Positions 20,749 to 29,277 of a stretch of DNA of 64,000 bases are shown here, in pieces. Position numbers and translations under genes: made by a program. Numbering within the stretch: position 1 is the stretch's first letter; each line of letters opens with the position of its first letter. Source of the DNA: Pseudomonadales bacterium (GTDB lineage Bacteria; Pseudomonadota; Gammaproteobacteria; Pseudomonadales; Pseudohongiellaceae); NCBI GenBank assembly GCA_023257655.1, contig JALRBQ010000092.1, forward strand, positions 1-64,000, in the 5' to 3' direction. The notes under the pieces are model-generated. The model was given only the letters and a program-made list of their open reading frames with translations. It had not been told where the DNA came from and made no database searches.

Positions 20749-23700
20749 TTAGCGTGTTCCGAGGTAACTGCGTAGCCGCGGTGGAAAGCGCTGTTGTTGC
20801 AGTGCCTGTTGCAGGTTCCACCGCTCATCTTCCGCGACATCGCGCAGGAAATGAATTTCACCGGCATCGAGTACGGCAACCGGAATACCGCCGCGATACA
20901 GCACACGATTGCTGTTAAGGCGCGCCAGTTTGCGCGTGGGTAAGAGCAGGTTCAACAAATTAAGCGGATCGGTAGCTGCCAGTGAATAATAGGGCTTGTG
21001 TCTGGCAGATTTACCTTCGGTATTGGCAAATCGGCGCAATTCATCGACTGTGTTGTTGAAGGCAAATTGCTCGCCACCGACGCCGGCAATGAAACGACCT
21101 CCACGAATTACACCGCGTAGCTCCATCCAGCGCAGCGTCTGCAGGAGCACACGCCATGGCGGAGCAAAAGATTCCCGCTCCAGAATGCCGCGAAACAGCA
21201 CTCCCCACCGTTGCAGGTAGATGCTCACGAGCCGTTCGCGTTGCTCTTCATTCAGCACATCCCACTGCGAGGGTCCGCGTTTTGTGGCGGCGGGCTCCGG
21301 TGTCTGTTGCCCGATTTCCAGCAAACTCCAGCGTCCCGCGTCTTCGACTCCGAACATCGCCTTGCGCCCGCGGCGTCGATGAGAACCGGGCTTCTTGCCC
21401 GCAGGAGTGAGCAAGGCGCGCAATCCGGTGAAGCTGTCACTGGTGAGGCGGCCTGCGCTGACTAGTTCAGCGAGGCTGCTCTCGAGCTGGGTTCGGAGCA
21501 GACCGGTGCGACTCTGGATCTGATCGAAGAAGCTGGCACCGTGTAGCCGCAAGTCGGCTTCCACTTGCGCCGCTGCGCCGCTCACTACCGGCGACTCGCC
21601 GGCTTCCTGTTGGGCCGCAGCCAGGGCCTTCCAGATATCCAGATTGGCGCGGCAGGCGAGTGTAATGGGCGTACTCTTTACCGGTCCGCTGGTCTTTTTC
21701 TGCAGACTCCTGATTGTCGGTGCGCTGTAGCGACCCCAGCAAACCCGGCCACTGATGCACAGGGCGTCCAACCAAACGGGGTCATAGTCCTTGACCCGTG
21801 ATGGGTACAGATTCGCCTCCCAACTCGCCGCCGGAGCGGCAATGCCATCCAGCAGATTCAGGCAAGCCTGTAGCTGCGTCTGTCCATCAAGGCCGGGCAG
21901 TCTGACGGCATCCTGTTGGTTCACGGGTAACAATTGATGCCTGTCAAACAGGAATTCGGTGTAGGACTCCAGCGAAACCGGTTTGATGCGTTTGCGGTGA
22001 GCATCGATGGTGTAACGGTGAATGCGTTGCAATAATCGCCGCTCACACCATTCAGTCTCACGCTCCTGCTGTCCTGCTGTGGCGGGTGAGAACTGGCCCC
22101 GGAAGGCGTAGCCCTCGACCTCCAGCGCGATCAGTGCGGCATTAATTGTAGCCACCTTGAGATTGAGTTCCCGACTGAGCTGGCTTGCTGTTACTGGCCC
22201 CACTCCCTCCAGTCGACCCTGGACAATTTCTTTCAGCGCTGTTTCCGGATGCCACTGTTGACCCTGCAGAAAAGCAGGCAATGATTGAGTGTCGGTCAGC
22301 GCGAAAACCGCGGCAAAACAGGGAAATCGTTCTGTAGCGACCCAGATGCCTTGCGCAATGGCCGGTAGGTGCACGATGCGCTGCTGTGCCAACAAGCGTT
22401 CCTGCCAAACTGCATAACGATGCCTGTCAAATTCTTCTGCCGTCATATAACAGATGCTGAGCAGGGCATCGTGCAGTTCCTCAGCATTGTTGACGAAGGG
22501 CCATGCCTCCTCTCGCACCCGTTGAATCGCCTCGGGGTCAAGCAGGCTGTAGTCTCGTGCCTCTGCCGGATCGGTCCAGCTGCGATTGCGAATCGCATTC
22601 GTACGACGCTCCTCGAATGGCGCATCATCGAGAAAGGCATAGGGCCTGGCGTTGATGATTTCCTGGGCAAACGGCGACGGCTCACGCAAATCTTTGGCAA
22701 TGAGCGTCAATTGGCCTCGCTCGATGGCCGTAATCAATTCCAGCAAGGCGTCAATATCCATCGCCTCGGTCAGACAGTCATGAATAGTTTGCTGCACCAG
22801 CGGATGCTCGGGAATTTCACGCTTGCCGGTGAGATTTTCCTGACACGCGATCTGATCCGGGAAAACATGCGCGACGAGATCCTCGGCGTCCATGCGCTGG
22901 AACTGGGGCGGTACGCGCTTGCCGCTGCGGTTACGCTGAATCGCGAGAGAACGAGTTGCATTCCAGCGCCATCTGACTTCAAACATCGGCGCATCGAGCA
23001 GTGCCTGAATCAATACATCGCGCACGGTGGCGGATTGCAGGTAGCGATACACCTCGTCAAGCTGAAAGCTGTGCACGGAGCCGAGCGAGATGACGATGCT
23101 GTCTTCATTTGCAGCAGCCTGTAGCTCGAAATTGAATGAGCGGCAAAAGCGCTTGCGCAGCGCGAGCCCCCAGCCACGGTTGATGCGGCTGCCAAATGGC
23201 GAATGGATGACGACGTGCATGTCTCCGACTTCGTCGAAAAATCTTTCCATCACAAGCGTCTCACGGGTCGGCATGACCCCAAGCGCTTGCATTCCGGTTT
23301 GCAAATACTCGACGAGCTGCAACGCGCCGGCACGTGGCAAATTCACATTGTCGACTACCCATTGGACGGCCGCATTGGCCGAGTCGTCAGTCAGCAGATC
23401 GGCGATGTTCTGCCGCAGATGTGAAACCGCCATCGACAATTCATGGGTGCGACCTGGCCCTTCTCCAAACCAGAACGGAATTGTGGGCGGCATACCCTGA
23501 GCATCACGCACGCGAACCTTGAGGCCATCGATGCGCAGCATCTGCCAGCTGTGGGTGCCGAGAGTAAAGACATCCCCCGGCAGCGCTTCGAGCGCAAAAT
23601 CTTCATTGAGACTACCAACCACGGTGTCTTCCGGGTCCAGTACGACCTGGTAATCAAACATATCCGGTATCGCACCACCATTGGTGAGTGCAACCAGGTT

Positions 23701-25200
23701 AGCGCCACGTCGTGCCCGCACCCGATTGTTGATTGCATCAAGGTGCAGGTGTGCGCCGCGCCGTCCGCGGCGACTGGTATAGCCCTCCGCCAGCATGCGC
23801 ACCAAAGTCTCGAATTCGGTGTACTGTAAATCGCGGTAAGCGTAAGCGTTGGTAAAGAGACGAAACAGGTCCTGCATCGCCCAGCCTTCGGCACTGGCAT
23901 CGGGATTGAAGGTAGTGGAAGAGACTTCGGCCACGATCTGCTGGGACAGAATATCGGAGGGCTGCTCCGGCATGACAATTCGATCGAGTTCTCCCTGGCC
24001 GATGCTGTGCAGCAAGGCAGTTGCCTCAACCAGATCGTCACGAGTCAGGGGAAACAGAATGCCCTTCGGCCGCCCGTGAATCGAGTGACCGCTGCGACCG
24101 ACGCGCTGCAGAAACGTGGCGATGCTTTTCGGCGATGAGAACTGCACGACAAGATCGACCGAGCCAATGTCGATGCCCAGCTCCATCGATGCCGTCGCGA
24201 CCAGCACCTTCAGAGCCCCGGCCTTGAGTTTTTGTTCGGCCGCAAAGCGATGGTCCTTGCTCATGCTGCCGTGATGGGAGCACACGGCGTTCTCCCCCAG
24301 GCGTTCGGCGAGTGCCAGCGCCAGCCGCTCCGAGAGTCGGCGCGTATTCACAAATACCAGGGTGGTGTCATGGGAATTGATGAGCTCGACCAGCCGCTTG
24401 TACAGCTCTTCCCATACCTCGTTGCTCATTAATGCCGACAGAGCTGAGCCCGGTACCTCGATGCTGATATCAATCTGTCGACGGAAGCCGGTATCGACAA
24501 TTTCACAGTCCACGCTGTCGGCTGTGCAATGGGCATTACCCACCAGATAGCGCGCTACCATTTCGATCGGTTTCTGGGTAGCCGAAAGGCCGATGCGTTG
24601 CAACGCCTGACCTGAGTGACTCTGAACGAGGTGTTGCAGGCGCTCGATGGAGAGCGCCAGATGGGCACCGCGTTTGTCACCCAGCATGGCGTGAATCTCA
24701 TCCACGATCAGGGTCGACACGCTGGCGAGCATGGCGCGACCGCTGGCACTCGTCAGTAACAGATACAGGGACTCGGGGGTCGTCACCAGGATATGGGGCG
24801 GCTTCTTCGCCATCTTCTGGCGTTCGCTGGCAGGCGTATCGCCCGTGCGCACGGCTACCCGAATGTCCACGGGATGCTCGCCACACAGGTGCAAGTGCTC
24901 GGCGATGCCGTCTAGGGGTTGTTCCAGATTCTTCTGGATGTCGTTGCTGAGCGCCTTCAGGGGCGAGACGTAGAGAATCTGAACCCCATCCTCCAACTGC
25001 TGGCTGAGGTCGCGCTGGACCAGGGTATCGATGGCGGCGTAGAAGGCGGCGAGAGTCTTGCCGCTGCCGGTTGGGGCGGAGATCAGCGTGTGACGCCCTG
25101 CCTTGATGGCAGGCCAGGCCTGGGCCTGGGCGGCGGTAGGCTCGCCAAAACGACTGCGAAACCAGCTCTGGCAGGCGGGATGGAATTGCGCGAGTGCCAC
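20749..25200 (-). CDS. lhr: Lhr-type large ATP-dependent helicase
   Basis: The 1483-residue protein matches full-length bacterial Lhr (long form). Superfamily 2 helicase motifs are visible: the Q-motif region EPTAAQAQAWPAI, Walker A APTGSGKT, the Walker B box DEIH, SAT-like GLSATQ, and motif VI QRVGRSGHS. The Lhr-core winged-helix and beta-barrel parts follow. The extra C-terminal 600 residues correspond to the Lhr-CTD that oligomerises in E. coli and mycobacterial Lhr. The enzyme translocates 3'-5' on ssDNA and unwinds RNA:DNA hybrids, with links to DNA repair. The start is a GTG at 25198-25200 behind AAGGTGG. A LexA-like palindrome lies just upstream. Confidence 0.96.
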   Translation of the reverse strand: MALAQFHPACQSWFRSRFGEPTAAQAQAWPAIKAGRHTLISAPTGSGKTLAAFYAAIDTLVQRDLSQQLEDGVQILYVSPLKALSNDIQKNLEQPLDGIAEHLHLCGEHPVDIRVAVRTGDTPASERQKMAKKPPHILVTTPESLYLLLTSASGRAMLASVSTLIVDEIHAMLGDKRGAHLALSIERLQHLVQSHSGQALQRIGLSATQKPIEMVARYLVGNAHCTADSVDCEIVDTGFRRQIDISIEVPGSALSALMSNEVWEELYKRLVELINSHDTTLVFVNTRRLSERLALALAERLGENAVCSHHGSMSKDHRFAAEQKLKAGALKVLVATASMELGIDIGSVDLVVQFSSPKSIATFLQRVGRSGHSIHGRPKGILFPLTRDDLVEATALLHSIGQGELDRIVMPEQPSDILSQQIVAEVSSTTFNPDASAEGWAMQDLFRLFTNAYAYRDLQYTEFETLVRMLAEGYTSRRGRRGAHLHLDAINNRVRARRGANLVALTNGGAIPDMFDYQVVLDPEDTVVGSLNEDFALEALPGDVFTLGTHSWQMLRIDGLKVRVRDAQGMPPTIPFWFGEGPGRTHELSMAVSHLRQNIADLLTDDSANAAVQWVVDNVNLPRAGALQLVEYLQTGMQALGVMPTRETLVMERFFDEVGDMHVVIHSPFGSRINRGWGLALRKRFCRSFNFELQAAANEDSIVISLGSVHSFQLDEVYRYLQSATVRDVLIQALLDAPMFEVRWRWNATRSLAIQRNRSGKRVPPQFQRMDAEDLVAHVFPDQIACQENLTGKREIPEHPLVQQTIHDCLTEAMDIDALLELITAIERGQLTLIAKDLREPSPFAQEIINARPYAFLDDAPFEERRTNAIRNRSWTDPAEARDYSLLDPEAIQRVREEAWPFVNNAEELHDALLSICYMTAEEFDRHRYAVWQERLLAQQRIVHLPAIAQGIWVATERFPCFAAVFALTDTQSLPAFLQGQQWHPETALKEIVQGRLEGVGPVTASQLSRELNLKVATINAALIALEVEGYAFRGQFSPATAGQQERETEWCERRLLQRIHRYTIDAHRKRIKPVSLESYTEFLFDRHQLLPVNQQDAVRLPGLDGQTQLQACLNLLDGIAAPAASWEANLYPSRVKDYDPVWLDALCISGRVCWGRYSAPTIRSLQKKTSGPVKSTPITLACRANLDIWKALAAAQQEAGESPVVSGAAAQVEADLRLHGASFFDQIQSRTGLLRTQLESSLAELVSAGRLTSDSFTGLRALLTPAGKKPGSHRRRGRKAMFGVEDAGRWSLLEIGQQTPEPAATKRGPSQWDVLNEEQRERLVSIYLQRWGVLFRGILERESFAPPWRVLLQTLRWMELRGVIRGGRFIAGVGGEQFAFNNTVDELRRFANTEGKSARHKPYYSLAATDPLNLLNLLLPTRKLARLNSNRVLYRGGIPVAVLDAGEIHFLRDVAEDERWNLQQALQQQRFPPRLRSYLGTR

Positions 25201-25221
25201 GGGTTACGCCACCTTCAGATA

Positions 25222-25237
25222 CTGTACGGGCGTACAG
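25222..25237. promoter_or_regulatory. LexA-like (SOS box type) palindrome at the lhr promoter
   Basis: CTGTACGGGCGTACAG is an inverted repeat of the form CTGT-N8-ACAG, the spacing of the gammaproteobacterial SOS box, with TA before it as in the consensus. The central eight bases are G+C rich, unlike the A+T-rich core of the E. coli site, so affinity may be modest. It overlaps the predicted -10/start region of lhr and lies 22 bases before the lhr start codon. Confidence 0.5.
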
Positions 25238-25264
25238 GTTAGTGCGGCCCACCGGAGATTGCAA
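25236..25264 (-). promoter_or_regulatory. Possible lhr promoter
   Basis: Reading on the minus strand, TTGCAA (25264-25259) and TAACCT (25241-25236) are 17 bases apart. The -10 match is partial. The LexA-like palindrome begins at the end of this -10, a position where a repressor would block transcription. Confidence 0.35.
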
Positions 25265-25288
25265 GCGGGCCGTGGGCGGTCAGCGGAT

Positions 25289-25317
25289 TTGACAGCACTA
25301 CCCATCGCGGCTAGCTT
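25289..25317 (+). promoter_or_regulatory. Possible lepB promoter
   Basis: A perfect -35 TTGACA at 25289-25294 is followed 17 bases later by TAGCTT at 25312-25317, a weak -10. The distance to the lepB start at 25382 is suitable. Confidence 0.4.
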
Positions 25318-25381
25318 ATAGAACCCCGTTCCGGGGCGCATTTGGCACACAGCCTGACTTATGCAGAGGGTGTTTTACTTC

Positions 25382-26077
25382 ATGTCCAATTTTACCAGCG
25401 CCACGTTCAGTGCCCGAATCCGCAGCTATCTTGGCCTGTTCTGGAAAGAAAATCGTCAATTCTTCCTGTTGTTGTTCTGCATCGTCTTCTTCAAGAGCGC
25501 TATCGCCGATCTTAGCTCAATCTCCGGCGCGTCGATGCAGCCGACCCTGCTTGACGGTGACAAGGTGTGGGTCAACAAGCTGGCTTACGACGTGAAGATT
25601 CCGTTCACTGAAATCTCGCTGGCAGAAGTCTCCGATCCCCAGCGTGGTGATGTCATCATCATCGACTCCAAGAAAGCCGACAAACGACTCGTCAAACGCA
25701 TCGTCGGAATTCCCGGTGATACGATCTACATGCAGAACAATGCTCTCGTCATCAATGGTGAGGCCGCCGGCTATGAGGTGCTGTCTCGCGACGACGACAA
25801 TGTCATCATTCTTGAAGAACTGCCCAATCGCGCCCATCAGGCCAAGCTTTCGCGCCAGTTCTTCAGCCGCACGAGTCGCAGCTACGGACCCACCGTGGTT
25901 CCCGAAGGCCAGTATTTTGTGCTCGGCGACAATCGGGATAACAGCGCTGACAGTCGGGTCTACAGCTTCGTCCCGCGCGAAGAAATTATCGGCCGCTCAG
26001 CGTCAGTGGTCTTTTCTCTCGATAGTGAACACAACTATCTGCCACGGGGTGAGCGCTTCCTGTCTGAAATAGAATAG
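25382..26077 (+). CDS. lepB: Signal peptidase I
   Basis: The 231-residue inner-membrane serine protease cleaves Sec and Tat signal peptides. One transmembrane segment (FFLLLFCIVFFKSAIADL) is followed by the catalytic Ser51 in SGASMQPTL, the general base Lys105 in RLVKRIVG, and the conserved box LGDNRDNSADSR. E. coli LepB has two N-terminal membrane segments and 324 residues. This single-segment, shorter form is common in marine gammaproteobacteria. ATG 25361, seven codons upstream, is an alternative start. No lepA or rnc neighbours are present, so this may be a second copy in the genome. Confidence 0.93.
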   Translation: MSNFTSATFSARIRSYLGLFWKENRQFFLLLFCIVFFKSAIADLSSISGASMQPTLLDGDKVWVNKLAYDVKIPFTEISLAEVSDPQRGDVIIIDSKKADKRLVKRIVGIPGDTIYMQNNALVINGEAAGYEVLSRDDDNVIILEELPNRAHQAKLSRQFFSRTSRSYGPTVVPEGQYFVLGDNRDNSADSRVYSFVPREEIIGRSASVVFSLDSEHNYLPRGERFLSEIE

Positions 26078-26130
26078 GACGCTGCAATAAAATCTGCCGC
26101 GGTGGGTTCTAGTAGGAGTGATCGAGACTC

Positions 26131-26175
26131 TTCACACATCAACTATTCACGCATCAACTCTTCACGCATCACTGG
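26131..26175. repeat. Three 15-bp tandem repeats in the selenoprotein leader
   Basis: Units TTCACACATCAACTA (26131), TTCACGCATCAACTC (26146) and TTCACGCATCACTGG (26161) follow each other directly, sharing TTCAC-CATCA. They end 19 bases before the start codon at 26195. They could be read in frame with the gene if a GTG at 26102 were used. However, the signal peptide starts at 26195, so they are more likely 5' untranslated sequence. Confidence 0.8.
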
Positions 26176-26194
26176 ACCTAGACAGGATTTGATT

Positions 26195-26782
26195 ATGATT
26201 CAGCTTCTTGACCGCGCCAGACAATCCGCGAGCCTGCTACTGGCAACGCTGTTCCTTATCTCTTTATCAACGTTTTCCCAGGCCCAGGATTTCGTCTGGT
26301 CGCCGGACTTCCCGGTTGGCAGTTCGATTCCTGACATCTCGGCACAGGATCAGGACGGCAACGTGCAGACGTTCGATGACCTCGTCGGCGAGAAGGGCCT
26401 GCTGTTCATGTTGAGCCGCTCCTTCGACTGGTGACCCTACTGTAAAGCTCAGCTCGTGCAGCTGACCGAAATCAGTGACCAGTTTGTCGCCATGGGCATT
26501 AACGTGGCTACGCTTACCTATGACCCGATCAGCCTGTTGAAGGATGTGCAGAAAGACCAGGACATCGCCTTCACGCTCCTGCACGATGAGGAGGTAAAGA
26601 TTGTGAATGCCTTCGGCGTGCGCAATCTGGATTATGAACCGGGGCATCGTGCCTACGGCATTCCTTATCCGGGCATTTTCCTGATCAGCCCCGACGGCGT
26701 AATTCGCTACAAGTTTGCCGAGGCCCGTTATCAGGACCGTCCGGATTTCGCCGACGTGCTGGAAGCCGCCGCAGACATGTAG
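26195..26782 (+). CDS. Exported peroxiredoxin-like selenoprotein with a UxxC redox motif (in-frame TGA = Sec80)
   Basis: From ATG 26195 (AGGA eight bases before) the frame gives a Sec signal peptide (LLLATLFLISLSTFSQA) and then a thioredoxin-fold AhpC/TSA-like domain. At 26432-26434 a TGA interrupts at residue 80 in the context SFDW-TGA-PYCKAQL. The frame then continues to TAG at 26780-26782 with typical Prx-like sequence (GINVATLTYD, GIPYPGIFLISPDGVIRYKF). Cys homologues of this family have C-P-x-C at this spot, so the TGA sits exactly on the catalytic cysteine and reads as selenocysteine, giving Sec80-Pro-Tyr-Cys83. A SECIS-like hairpin follows at the correct distance. Total length is 195 residues, normal for the family. 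Plain termination would leave a useless 79-residue stub. selA, selB, selC and selD must lie elsewhere. Confidence 0.85.
26449..26465 (+). promoter_or_regulatory. Bacterial SECIS-like hairpin
   Basis: The stem CAGCT (26450-26454) pairs with AGCTG (26460-26464), extended by T26449-A26465. The apical loop is CGTGC, with G at its second position. Twenty bases separate the TGA from the loop. This fits the loose bacterial rules: apical loop with a G in its first two positions, about 16-37 nt after the UGA. Confidence 0.65.
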
Positions 26783-26800
26783 AACAGATGGCGATGAACG

Positions 26801-26828
26801 ACGGGAAGCCCAGGCTTCCCGTTTTTTT
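26801..26828 (+). terminator. Rho-independent terminator after the selenoprotein gene
   Basis: ACGGGAAG at 26801-26808 pairs with CTTCCCGT at 26815-26822 around a 6-base loop, and a run of seven T follows to 26828. It lies 19 bases after the TAG, which supports translation of the whole frame through the internal TGA as the natural gene end. Confidence 0.9.
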
Positions 26829-27024
26829 GTCCGTCGTACCGCGCTTGCTGCACAACCCACTCGATCGACTCCCTTTGTTACCGCGCCTCTGACCCGAGTA
26901 GCAACTCCGGGCAACGACCCGGGCGCATGCGTGCAAAATGCGGGTTTACAAGTCGGTACTTTGTTGTACTCTTGCCCGTACTCGACAGGCACCCAGGGAA
27001 TTCACGAAGTAATCGAAAGGAAGT

Positions 27025-29277
27025 ATGCACATGACCCGCGATGGATGGCGCCCGTTGCCTGCCCAAATTCTTACACTCACTCTCCTGCTAGCTACCCTCC
27101 TCCCGCTGGCGACGTCGCAGGCACAGTCGAGTTCCGACTTTAGCATTCCGCGCGTGACATCCCGGCCGGATATTGACGGCAACGTTGGCTCACAGGAATG
27201 GCAGGCGGCGACCCGTGTCTCTCTCGATATCGAGACCAGCCCCGGTGAAAACATTCCCTCGGCCGTCACCGCAGAAGCCTTCCTGATGGAAGACGGCGAG
27301 ACGCTTTATGTGGCATTTATCGCCCCCGATCCTGACCCCTCACGCATTCGCGCCTTCTATCGCGACCGGGACAGTATCGGACGTGACGACCGCATCGGCA
27401 TCGTACTCGATACCTTCAATGATCAGCGGCGTGCCTTCGAGTTCATGGTTAACCCGCTTGGCATTCAGTTCGATGCCATCTTTGATGACATCAACAACAA
27501 CGAAGACGCTTCGTGGAATGCGATCTGGGATAGCGCAGGAGTCATCGGCGCTACCGGGTACAGTGTGGAGATGGCGATACCGCTCAAGCAATTGCGCTTC
27601 AATCGAAGCGAAACCGACCAGATCTGGGGTATCGGTCTCGTGCGTCACTATCCGCGCGATCGCCCCTATCGCATCAACAACGCACCGATCGAGCTCAACG
27701 GCAATTGCTTCCTGTGCGAGTTCGACAAGGCAAGCGGCTTCGCCAATATCGAACCGAGCCGAAATCTCGAGATCATTCCTACGGTGACAGCGACCTCCAT
27801 CGAGACGCGTGACCCTGCCACCGGAGTGACCGAACGCGCGTCGATCGATCCCGAGGCCAGTGTGGATGTGCGCTGGGGAATTACACAGGATATTTATTTC
27901 AATGGCACGCTCAATCCCGATTTCTCCCAGATTGAAGCCGACAGCCCCCAACTCGCTGTCAATGAGACCTTCAGTCTGTTCTTTCCCGAGCGACGTACCT
28001 TCTTCCTCGACGGCGCCGACTATTTCAACAGCTATGTCAATCTCGTGCACACGCGCAATATCGCTTCACCGGACTTTGGCCTCAAACTCACCGGCAAATC
28101 CGGCGCCCATAGCTATGGAGTGCTGAGTGCCAATGATGATGTGACGAGCTTCCTCATACCGAACAGTCTCAGCTCCAGCGTCGCCTCACTGGGTGAGATC
28201 GGTAGCGACATCGCGATAGCCCGCTATCGCTACGACGTCGGCAACAACTCCAGCCTCGGCACAACTATCACCGATCGCCGCGGCGGCGATTATGAAAACA
28301 CGGTGATGTCGATTGACGGCGTCTTCGAACTGACCGATCAGGACACTCTGTATGTACAAACGATGCGATCGGAATCGGCTTACCCCGATGCCATACAGAC
28401 ACGTTATGGTCAGGATGCCAGTCTGAGCGATTCCTCGACCGTGCTGGAATATACCCACTTTGATCGCACCTGGGACTGGCGCTTCCAGTATTTCGACTAC
28501 GGCAGGGACTTCCGTGCCGACCTCGGTTTCCTCAATCGGGTGGACTACAAGAAGGAAGTTTACACGGTGGGCCGCAGCTGGCGCTGGTCCGGCGACAGTT
28601 TCTTTTCCCGTATCCGTTTCGCCGCCGACTACGATCGCACCGTCGACCAGGCTGGCAAGGTGCTCGAGGAAGAGATGGAGTATTTCATCAACATGAACGG
28701 ACCTTTGCAGTCCCGACTCAACGGCCTGTTTGGCGGCAGCAAGACTTACTGGAATGGCAAGTATTTCCAGGAACACTTCAACCAGATCGACTTTGGCTTT
28801 ACACCAACGACGAATCTGCAGCTTGGCATGCTCATACGTATCGAGGACGTCGTCGATTTCGCCAACACCCGGCTCGGCAAGTCGACTCGCTATGGACCGG
28901 ATTTCCGCTATCAGTGGGGCGAGCACCTGCAATTCGATTTCGACTACAGCTACCAGGAATTCAAGTCGGACGGGGAACACCTGTTCACCGCGCGACTGGC
29001 GGATCTTCGCGCCACTTACCAGTTCAGCTCGCGGAGCTTCCTGCGCTTTACCCTGCAATCGGTGGACACCGAGCGCGTGCCTGAACGGTATGTGCGAACC
29101 GTGCAGCGTACGAACAAGGAACTCACTTCTCAGTTGCTTTACAGCTACAAGGTAAACGCGGCGACGCGTTTCTATGTCGGCTATTCGGACGCCGGGTTCC
29201 AGAACGACAGCTATGACTCCATCGAGCGCACGGATCGCGCGTTATTCGCCAAATTCAGTTACGCCTGGCTGCCCTAG
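27025..29277 (+). CDS. DUF5916 outer-membrane protein with an N-terminal CBM9-like domain
   Basis: The 750-residue protein has a signal peptide (ILTLTLLLATLLPLATSQA). Next is a carbohydrate-binding-family-9-like domain (residues about 45-210, with RPDIDGNVGSQEWQAA, ETLYVAFIAPDPDPSRIRA and GYSVEMAIPLKQLRF). The C-terminal half is a DUF5916 beta-barrel with many alternating aromatic strands (WRFQYFDYGRDFRADLGF, RFYVGYSDAGFQ), ending FSYAWLP. Such proteins occur near TonB-dependent receptors and peptidase or glycan-use genes in marine bacteria; their job is unknown. ATG 27025 or 27031 could start, both behind AAAGGAAGT. The gene stands between the selenoprotein and cupin genes on the same strand. 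Confidence 0.85.
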   Translation: MHMTRDGWRPLPAQILTLTLLLATLLPLATSQAQSSSDFSIPRVTSRPDIDGNVGSQEWQAATRVSLDIETSPGENIPSAVTAEAFLMEDGETLYVAFIAPDPDPSRIRAFYRDRDSIGRDDRIGIVLDTFNDQRRAFEFMVNPLGIQFDAIFDDINNNEDASWNAIWDSAGVIGATGYSVEMAIPLKQLRFNRSETDQIWGIGLVRHYPRDRPYRINNAPIELNGNCFLCEFDKASGFANIEPSRNLEIIPTVTATSIETRDPATGVTERASIDPEASVDVRWGITQDIYFNGTLNPDFSQIEADSPQLAVNETFSLFFPERRTFFLDGADYFNSYVNLVHTRNIASPDFGLKLTGKSGAHSYGVLSANDDVTSFLIPNSLSSSVASLGEIGSDIAIARYRYDVGNNSSLGTTITDRRGGDYENTVMSIDGVFELTDQDTLYVQTMRSESAYPDAIQTRYGQDASLSDSSTVLEYTHFDRTWDWRFQYFDYGRDFRADLGFLNRVDYKKEVYTVGRSWRWSGDSFFSRIRFAADYDRTVDQAGKVLEEEMEYFINMNGPLQSRLNGLFGGSKTYWNGKYFQEHFNQIDFGFTPTTNLQLGMLIRIEDVVDFANTRLGKSTRYGPDFRYQWGEHLQFDFDYSYQEFKSDGEHLFTARLADLRATYQFSSRSFLRFTLQSVDTERVPERYVRTVQRTNKELTSQLLYSYKVNAATRFYVGYSDAGFQNDSYDSIERTDRALFAKFSYAWLP

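Follow-up and report, generated by a model that had tools for sequence, protein, structure and literature searches.

Peroxiredoxin-like (Prx-like) thiol:disulfide oxidoreductase selenoproteins with a UxxC motif and an AhpC/TSA domain (PF00578) have been described since 2005, i.e., as Prx-like protein in the Sargasso Sea survey and as Prx-like 1 in the GOS survey (PMC1088965, PMC2398784, PMC9312934, PMC13188914). For this family, they describe SECIS elements of the bacterial type, homologues with Cys and an occurrence in the sea (PMC1088965, PMC2398784, PMC9312934, PMC13188914). A first, sequence-only reading of the present locus had likewise named Cys homologues and UxxC Prx-like selenoproteins of marine metagenomes. 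For the Pseudomonadales as then sampled, a survey of 2006 names FdhA as the only selenoprotein (PMC1794560). Our search for literature on selenocysteine (Sec) in Pseudohongiella, and on peroxiredoxin selenoproteins in Pseudomonadales MAGs, returned nothing, which is weak evidence of absence.

We analyzed a gene at 26195–26782 on the forward strand of the window, i.e., of the whole 64,000-nucleotide stretch of DNA. A single in-frame TGA at residue 80 precedes the final TAG, and read with TGA as Sec the frame encodes a complete protein of 195 amino acids. The TGA (26432–26434) is the first position of a UPYC motif (...SRSFDW-U-P-Y-C-K...), and the TGT codon of Cys83, the probable resolving partner, lies at 26441–26443. 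By eye, we read a Shine-Dalgarno-like AGGA 7 nt 5' of the ATG (26184–26187) and a probable signal peptide comprising residues 1–30 (26195–26284, ...STFSQA|QDF), where the structure model has a helix at residues 2–25. An intrinsic terminator at 26800–26828, with a 10-pair stem in the hairpin proper (26800–26823) followed by a T tail, stands 3' of the TAG as had been noted before. Just 5' of the gene, at 26127–26171, a 15-nt direct repeat (ACTCTTCACRCATCA-like) occurs three times in tandem. At gathering scores, Rfam gave no match anywhere in the window.

Standard ORF calling with table 11 breaks the gene into two pieces, 26102–26434 and 26456–26782, as was foreseen from the sequence. This split is what an ordinary stop would produce, whether through a pseudogene, an assembly error or two separate genes. 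One PF00578 match (83.7 bits, cut-off 26) spans the TGA with both halves inside. We looked at residue 80 in homologues from 390 genomes of the order and 137 genomes of the family, together with eight loci from MAGs. Among the 145 loci read (L018–L162, i.e., the best-scoring matches and those fetched, with weaker Prx homologues left out), residue 80 was encoded by TGA in 95, TGC in 38 and TGT in 12, and by no other codon, and Cys83 was kept in all 145. The residue following U/C varied in single rows, as in WUGYC (L042) and WUSFC (L039). These counts include repeats: L048–L055 stem from a different collection, at least three of them (L048, L054, L055) being probable duplicates of contigs already included, and six genomes (G039, G404, G412, G482, G503, G509) contribute two loci each. 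Distinct 90-nt stretches numbered 85 for Sec and 48 for Cys forms.

In the window's genus, a match spanning residue 80 was read in 65 genomes, every one of which has TGA, and the order sample held a TGA orthologue in five of seven other species of this genus. Elsewhere in the family, the genera read had Cys; the exceptions were G431 and G404, and no further genome of the G404 genus gave a match. Positions that were invariant or nearly so in 52 sequences include G68, R75, W79, U/C80, C83, Q86, Y109, D110, P159, G160 and R182. After the TGA, dN/dS was 0.07–0.17 in five of ten relatives, synonymous sites being saturated in the other five, and this part of the protein is under strong constraint. 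Together with Cys as the sole alternative to TGA in the 145 loci read, this constraint and the selected SECIS described below make an ordinary stop at residue 80 exceedingly improbable.

We placed 136 rows, with residue 80 masked and L048–L055 and L040 left out, on a protein tree, a quick tree with long-branch warnings. It required three Sec/Cys changes, compared with a mean of about 39.5 after shuffling. One locus, L116:68–634 (+, genome G431), has TGA at residue 80 inside a Cys clade and an otherwise Cys genus, with SH-aLRT values of 90 for the pair and 99 for the group of five rows. Its downstream hairpin differs from that of the window gene. Either a return from Cys to Sec or an error in sequencing may account for the L116 TGA.

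The sequence-only reading had asked for the Sec genes in the same genome, and all four, selA, selB, selC and selD, were found. In the host assembly (3.11 Mb, 101 contigs, 93% complete), tRNA-Sec scored 66.9 bits (cut-off 47) and ARAGORN assigned it the anticodon tca. The genes for SelB (366 bits), SelA (554 bits) and SelD (261 bits) each exceeded their cut-offs. selD (G000:C88:20239–21156) lies within a 785-residue open frame that has no inner stops. As this frame is longer than SelD alone, selD may be part of a fusion, for example of the Ndh-SelD form named in PMC2398784. The best FdhA match in the host genome was far under the cut-off and had no TGA.

Among family genomes, a strong tRNA-Sec (at least 59 bits) was present in 61 of 67 with TGA and in 12 of 37 with Cys. 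Of 113 matching genomes, 104 enter this tally, nine with only partial or long-paralogue matches having been set aside. With strict filters, no strong tRNA-Sec was found in the remaining 6 of the 67 TGA-bearing genomes, which are 68–94% complete. From the 12 Cys genomes we conclude that Sec decoding is kept in some Cys-form species too, where it presumably serves other selenoproteins. The tRNA-Sec and its partner proteins also bear on the reading of UGA as one of the standard residues (Cys or Trp) through a changed code or a suppressor. UGA as Cys would match the Cys homologues, but the Sec machinery is complete, several homologous genes apparently end in TGA, and the hairpin considered next is enriched over synonymous recoding in TGA forms only. 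We give this reading hardly any credence.

The hairpin following the TGA (26449–26465) was claimed to be SECIS-like. It consists of six pairs (26449–26454 with 26460–26465) and a 5-nt loop, CGUGC (26455–26459), whose second position is a G (26456). The earlier description had placed it 20 nt beyond the TGA, which is right for the start of the loop, but the stem already begins 15 nt after the TGA. The criteria given for bacterial SECIS elements in PMC13188914, as quoted there, are a loop of 3–9 nt with G in its first two positions, a stem of 4–16 bp, a spacing of 16–37 nt and a minimum free energy of −7.5 kcal/mol or lower. Checked by hand, the window hairpin lies inside all four published criteria, with its 6-bp stem, 20-nt spacing and −11.8 kcal/mol (48- and 50-nt stretches).

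Fold energy alone distinguished this element only modestly. The 50-nt fold of −11.8 kcal/mol had a z score of −1.88, and 10 of 200 shuffles were equal or better. Against synonymous recoding, with codon use taken from elsewhere in the genes, the window hairpin had z −1.36 (p 0.07). The same comparison gave the Sec sequences a mean z score of −1.25 and the Cys sequences one of −0.10, and p ≤ 0.05 was reached by 11% of the 85 Sec and 8% of the Cys sequences. As the energies are weak, we built the case for a SECIS on pairing, covariation and codon invariance, and it is this comparative evidence that lifts the predicted hairpin above chance.

A complete 5-bp core was present in 81 of the 85 distinct Sec sequences, compared with 24.2 ± 4.2 after synonymous recoding (maximum 36 in 500 simulations). 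For the 48 Cys homologues the corresponding numbers were 13 and 9.8 ± 2.6. Codons +4 to +10 after the TGA were identical in 0.86–1.00 of same-amino-acid pairs among 62 Sec sequences (at least 56% identity to the window protein) versus 0.28–0.56 among 38 Cys sequences (at least 49% identity). This invariance stands despite synonymous sites that are nearly saturated between the window gene and 10 relatives. L024 was left out of the hairpin comparison.

Covariation was assessed in 34 chosen Sec sequences, i.e., all Sec loci below 56% identity and 11 closer ones. Pairs 21–31 and 22–30 had both sides changed in nine and seven sequences, respectively; of the other core pairs, two never vary and are thus uninformative, and the fifth is broken in three sequences. 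In total, 96.5% of cells were paired, and none of 500 shuffles reached the observed values for paired cells, double-change cells or covariation score. Two further measures, i.e., how many pairs were doubly changed and how many pair types occurred, did not exceed the shuffles. When the partner strand was slid, the signal was weaker every time, with at most 45.9% of cells paired (versus 96.5%) and a score of at most 0.155 (versus 0.282). We hence conclude that the hairpin downstream of the TGA is, on comparative evidence, under selection as a SECIS in the Sec forms. The SECIS claim of the first reading is thus borne out by the published criteria and backed by synonymous-site conservation and covariation.

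With the SECIS under selection, the TGA and its frame conserved, and genes for SelA, SelB, SelD and tRNA-Sec in the genome, UGA80 would be read as Sec and the 195-residue protein made. Pseudogene or assembly error, and likewise a changed code, were rejected given the cross-species TGA/Cys pattern, the constraint, the SECIS and the Sec machinery. We consider it very probable that the gene is a functional selenoprotein gene in which UGA80 specifies Sec; its product would most likely be a periplasmic UxxC thiol:disulfide redoxin.

Considering the fold, an AlphaFold2 model from a 52-row alignment reached a pLDDT of 94.6. Its best matches in the PDB were BCP/AhpE-type peroxiredoxins, followed closely by ResA-type oxidoreductases, and the protein would thus adopt a peroxiredoxin/ResA-type thioredoxin fold. 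In the TxxC/TxxU motif of peroxiredoxins, the third residue ahead of the peroxidatic Cys or Sec is Thr (or Ser), and their active-site Arg precedes a TFLI-like strand. In pairwise HMMER alignments, Cys83 fell on the Cys of TPGC (5enu) and of SPVC (2cx3), and Sec80 on the Thr of the former motif and the Ser of the latter, i.e., three residues ahead of this peroxidatic Cys. Sec80 hence stands where a peroxiredoxin has its Thr/Ser. The initial statement that the TGA takes the place of the catalytic Cys therefore applies to a thioredoxin-like CxxC motif and not to a peroxiredoxin, whose peroxidatic Cys aligns with Cys83. The probable cis-Pro, Pro159 (26669–26671, ...YPGIF...), lies opposite an Arg of 2cx3, and the 5enu Arg is opposite Tyr158; the window protein has no Arg in this stretch. 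Pro159 thus probably occupies the usual cis-Pro place, and the Arg of peroxiredoxins has a catalytic role.

The UxxC motif and the near-invariant Pro at the cis-Pro place favor thiol:disulfide exchange over classical peroxidase chemistry. In this exchange, the nucleophile would be Sec80 and the resolving residue Cys83, and the two would form a U80–C83 selenylsulfide. As a peroxiredoxin is also recognized by Pfam and NCBIfam, the reductase role is one that we infer. The same selenoprotein might instead work mainly as a periplasmic peroxidase, in which Sec80 with resolving Cys83, or Cys83 itself, reduces hydroperoxides. The AhpC-TSA domain score of 83.7 bits, the lead of peroxiredoxins among the fold matches and the peroxidatic position of Cys83 all speak for this; the PRK09437 peroxiredoxin model scored 50.2 bits, under its cut-off. 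A Sec at the Thr/Ser place of the TxxC motif and a Pro opposite the 2cx3 Arg (the 5enu Arg being one residue earlier) argue against it, as do a TxxU selenoperoxiredoxin with a leader already encoded in the same genome and the DsbD_N fusion of paralogues (see below). We regard a mainly peroxidatic role as possible but rather unlikely, and favor the thiol:disulfide redoxin.

Export of the Sec redoxin to the periplasm is part of this proposal. Signal peptides were recognized by eye in many relatives, two of them lipoprotein-like (L034, L037), and the window protein is probably exported and periplasmic as well. There it would most likely work as a thioredoxin-like redoxin, with electrons coming from a DsbD-like or thioredoxin-like donor. 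Some relatives also encode longer Sec paralogues (about 380 residues) whose C-terminal part is a DsbD_N-like domain (L150:1941–3098, +; L151, L152, L153, −). Three of the four were scanned, and this domain scored above the Pfam cut-off in two and below it in the third. The fusion hints at a DsbD-type electron donor for the Sec redoxin; in the window's own genome, no such Sec/DsbD_N fusion was found. Sec generally confers faster turnover than Cys and resistance to overoxidation. The Sec form may hence outdo the Cys forms of sister genera in both respects.

The host genome contains a second selenoprotein gene (G000:C14:85446–85985), for a peroxiredoxin that has a leader at its N terminus and Sec at the peroxidatic position (TGGU). 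Matches at E ≤ 1e-20 occurred in 70 of 81 genus genomes. Among the matches listed, the main group had one TGA each and five weak rows (36–38% identity) had none. In the 30 best-scoring loci, a 6-pair stem with a CGUGA loop was possible at nearly the same distance in all 30, and codons +5 to +10 were 93–100% identical. As codons +12, +13, +16, +18 and +19 were also 98–100% identical, this signal is less specific than that of the window gene. Moreover, the 48 nt are predicted to have a minimum-energy fold other than the proposed hairpin. CGUG opens the proposed loops of both genes. A SECIS-region model (R1) found no second convincing element in the genome, with 60 bits for its own gene and 18 bits (E 0.13) for the next hit, but this model misses the hairpin of the TxxU gene and is therefore not a general SECIS finder.

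The Sec redoxin gene is flanked by the gene for signal peptidase I, lepB (Peptidase_S26, 25361–26077, +), and by that for a DUF5916/CBM9-like protein (27025–29277, +). Among 38 Sec loci from the genus and from its near neighbor G404, 37 had lepB and 32 the DUF5916/CBM9 gene nearby; neither gene was found near the other 26 of the 64 loci examined with flanks (L019–L082). The order lepB – Sec redoxin – DUF5916/CBM9 (window 20749–29277) is largely kept in genus relatives, and a gene for an Lhr-like helicase often lies upstream on the other strand. As a tentative and rather doubtful extension, the lineage might run a periplasmic selenium redox relay composed of the UxxC redoxin, the TxxU selenoperoxiredoxin and, in some species, the DsbD_N-fused Sec-redoxin passing electrons to these two, with Sec regained from Cys at least once (G431, L116) and a SECIS arising de novo over the same codons.

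Standard ORF calling breaks this gene, and a Sec redoxin thus stays hidden behind a stop in two fragments. With two Sec redoxins, the host genome contrasts with the FdhA-only picture of the 2006 survey. As Sec and Cys sister groups occur within one bacterial family, they permit a comparison of what Sec costs and what it brings in proteins that are otherwise almost alike. Also, the SECIS signal, i.e., synonymous invariance in Sec forms and none in Cys forms, is a possible training set for SECIS predictors.

How does the protein compare with described systems? SelL carries a UxxU motif, in contrast to UxxC in the window protein. The SelL-related model NF040769 was its best NCBIfam match with 50.6 bits, below the 120-bit cut-off, and 51 of the 52 members of the A2 set match this model at E ≤ 1e-5. 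Sec peroxiredoxins (TxxU), one of which is encoded in the host genome, belong to the same Pfam fold family, but their Sec is peroxidatic (TGGU), whereas that of the window protein lies three residues earlier. With ResA/TlpA/DsbE reductases the protein shares a CxxC-type motif, probable export and a good structural match, yet it scored below the family cut-offs (32.7 bits for the ResA model), and its best Pfam domain is AhpC/TSA. The Prx-like selenoprotein family, whose reference is WP_010940744.1, is defined by the same PF00578 domain (83.7 bits for the window protein) and a UxxC or UxxU motif; with Prx-like 1, the window gene was matched by domain and motif only. It differs in its occurrence in Gammaproteobacteria/Pseudomonadales, in its genus-wide CGUG-loop SECIS and in the DsbD_N-fused paralogues of its relatives. 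By domain and motif, we conclude that the window gene is a well-supported additional member of the known Prx-like selenoprotein family and not a new kind.
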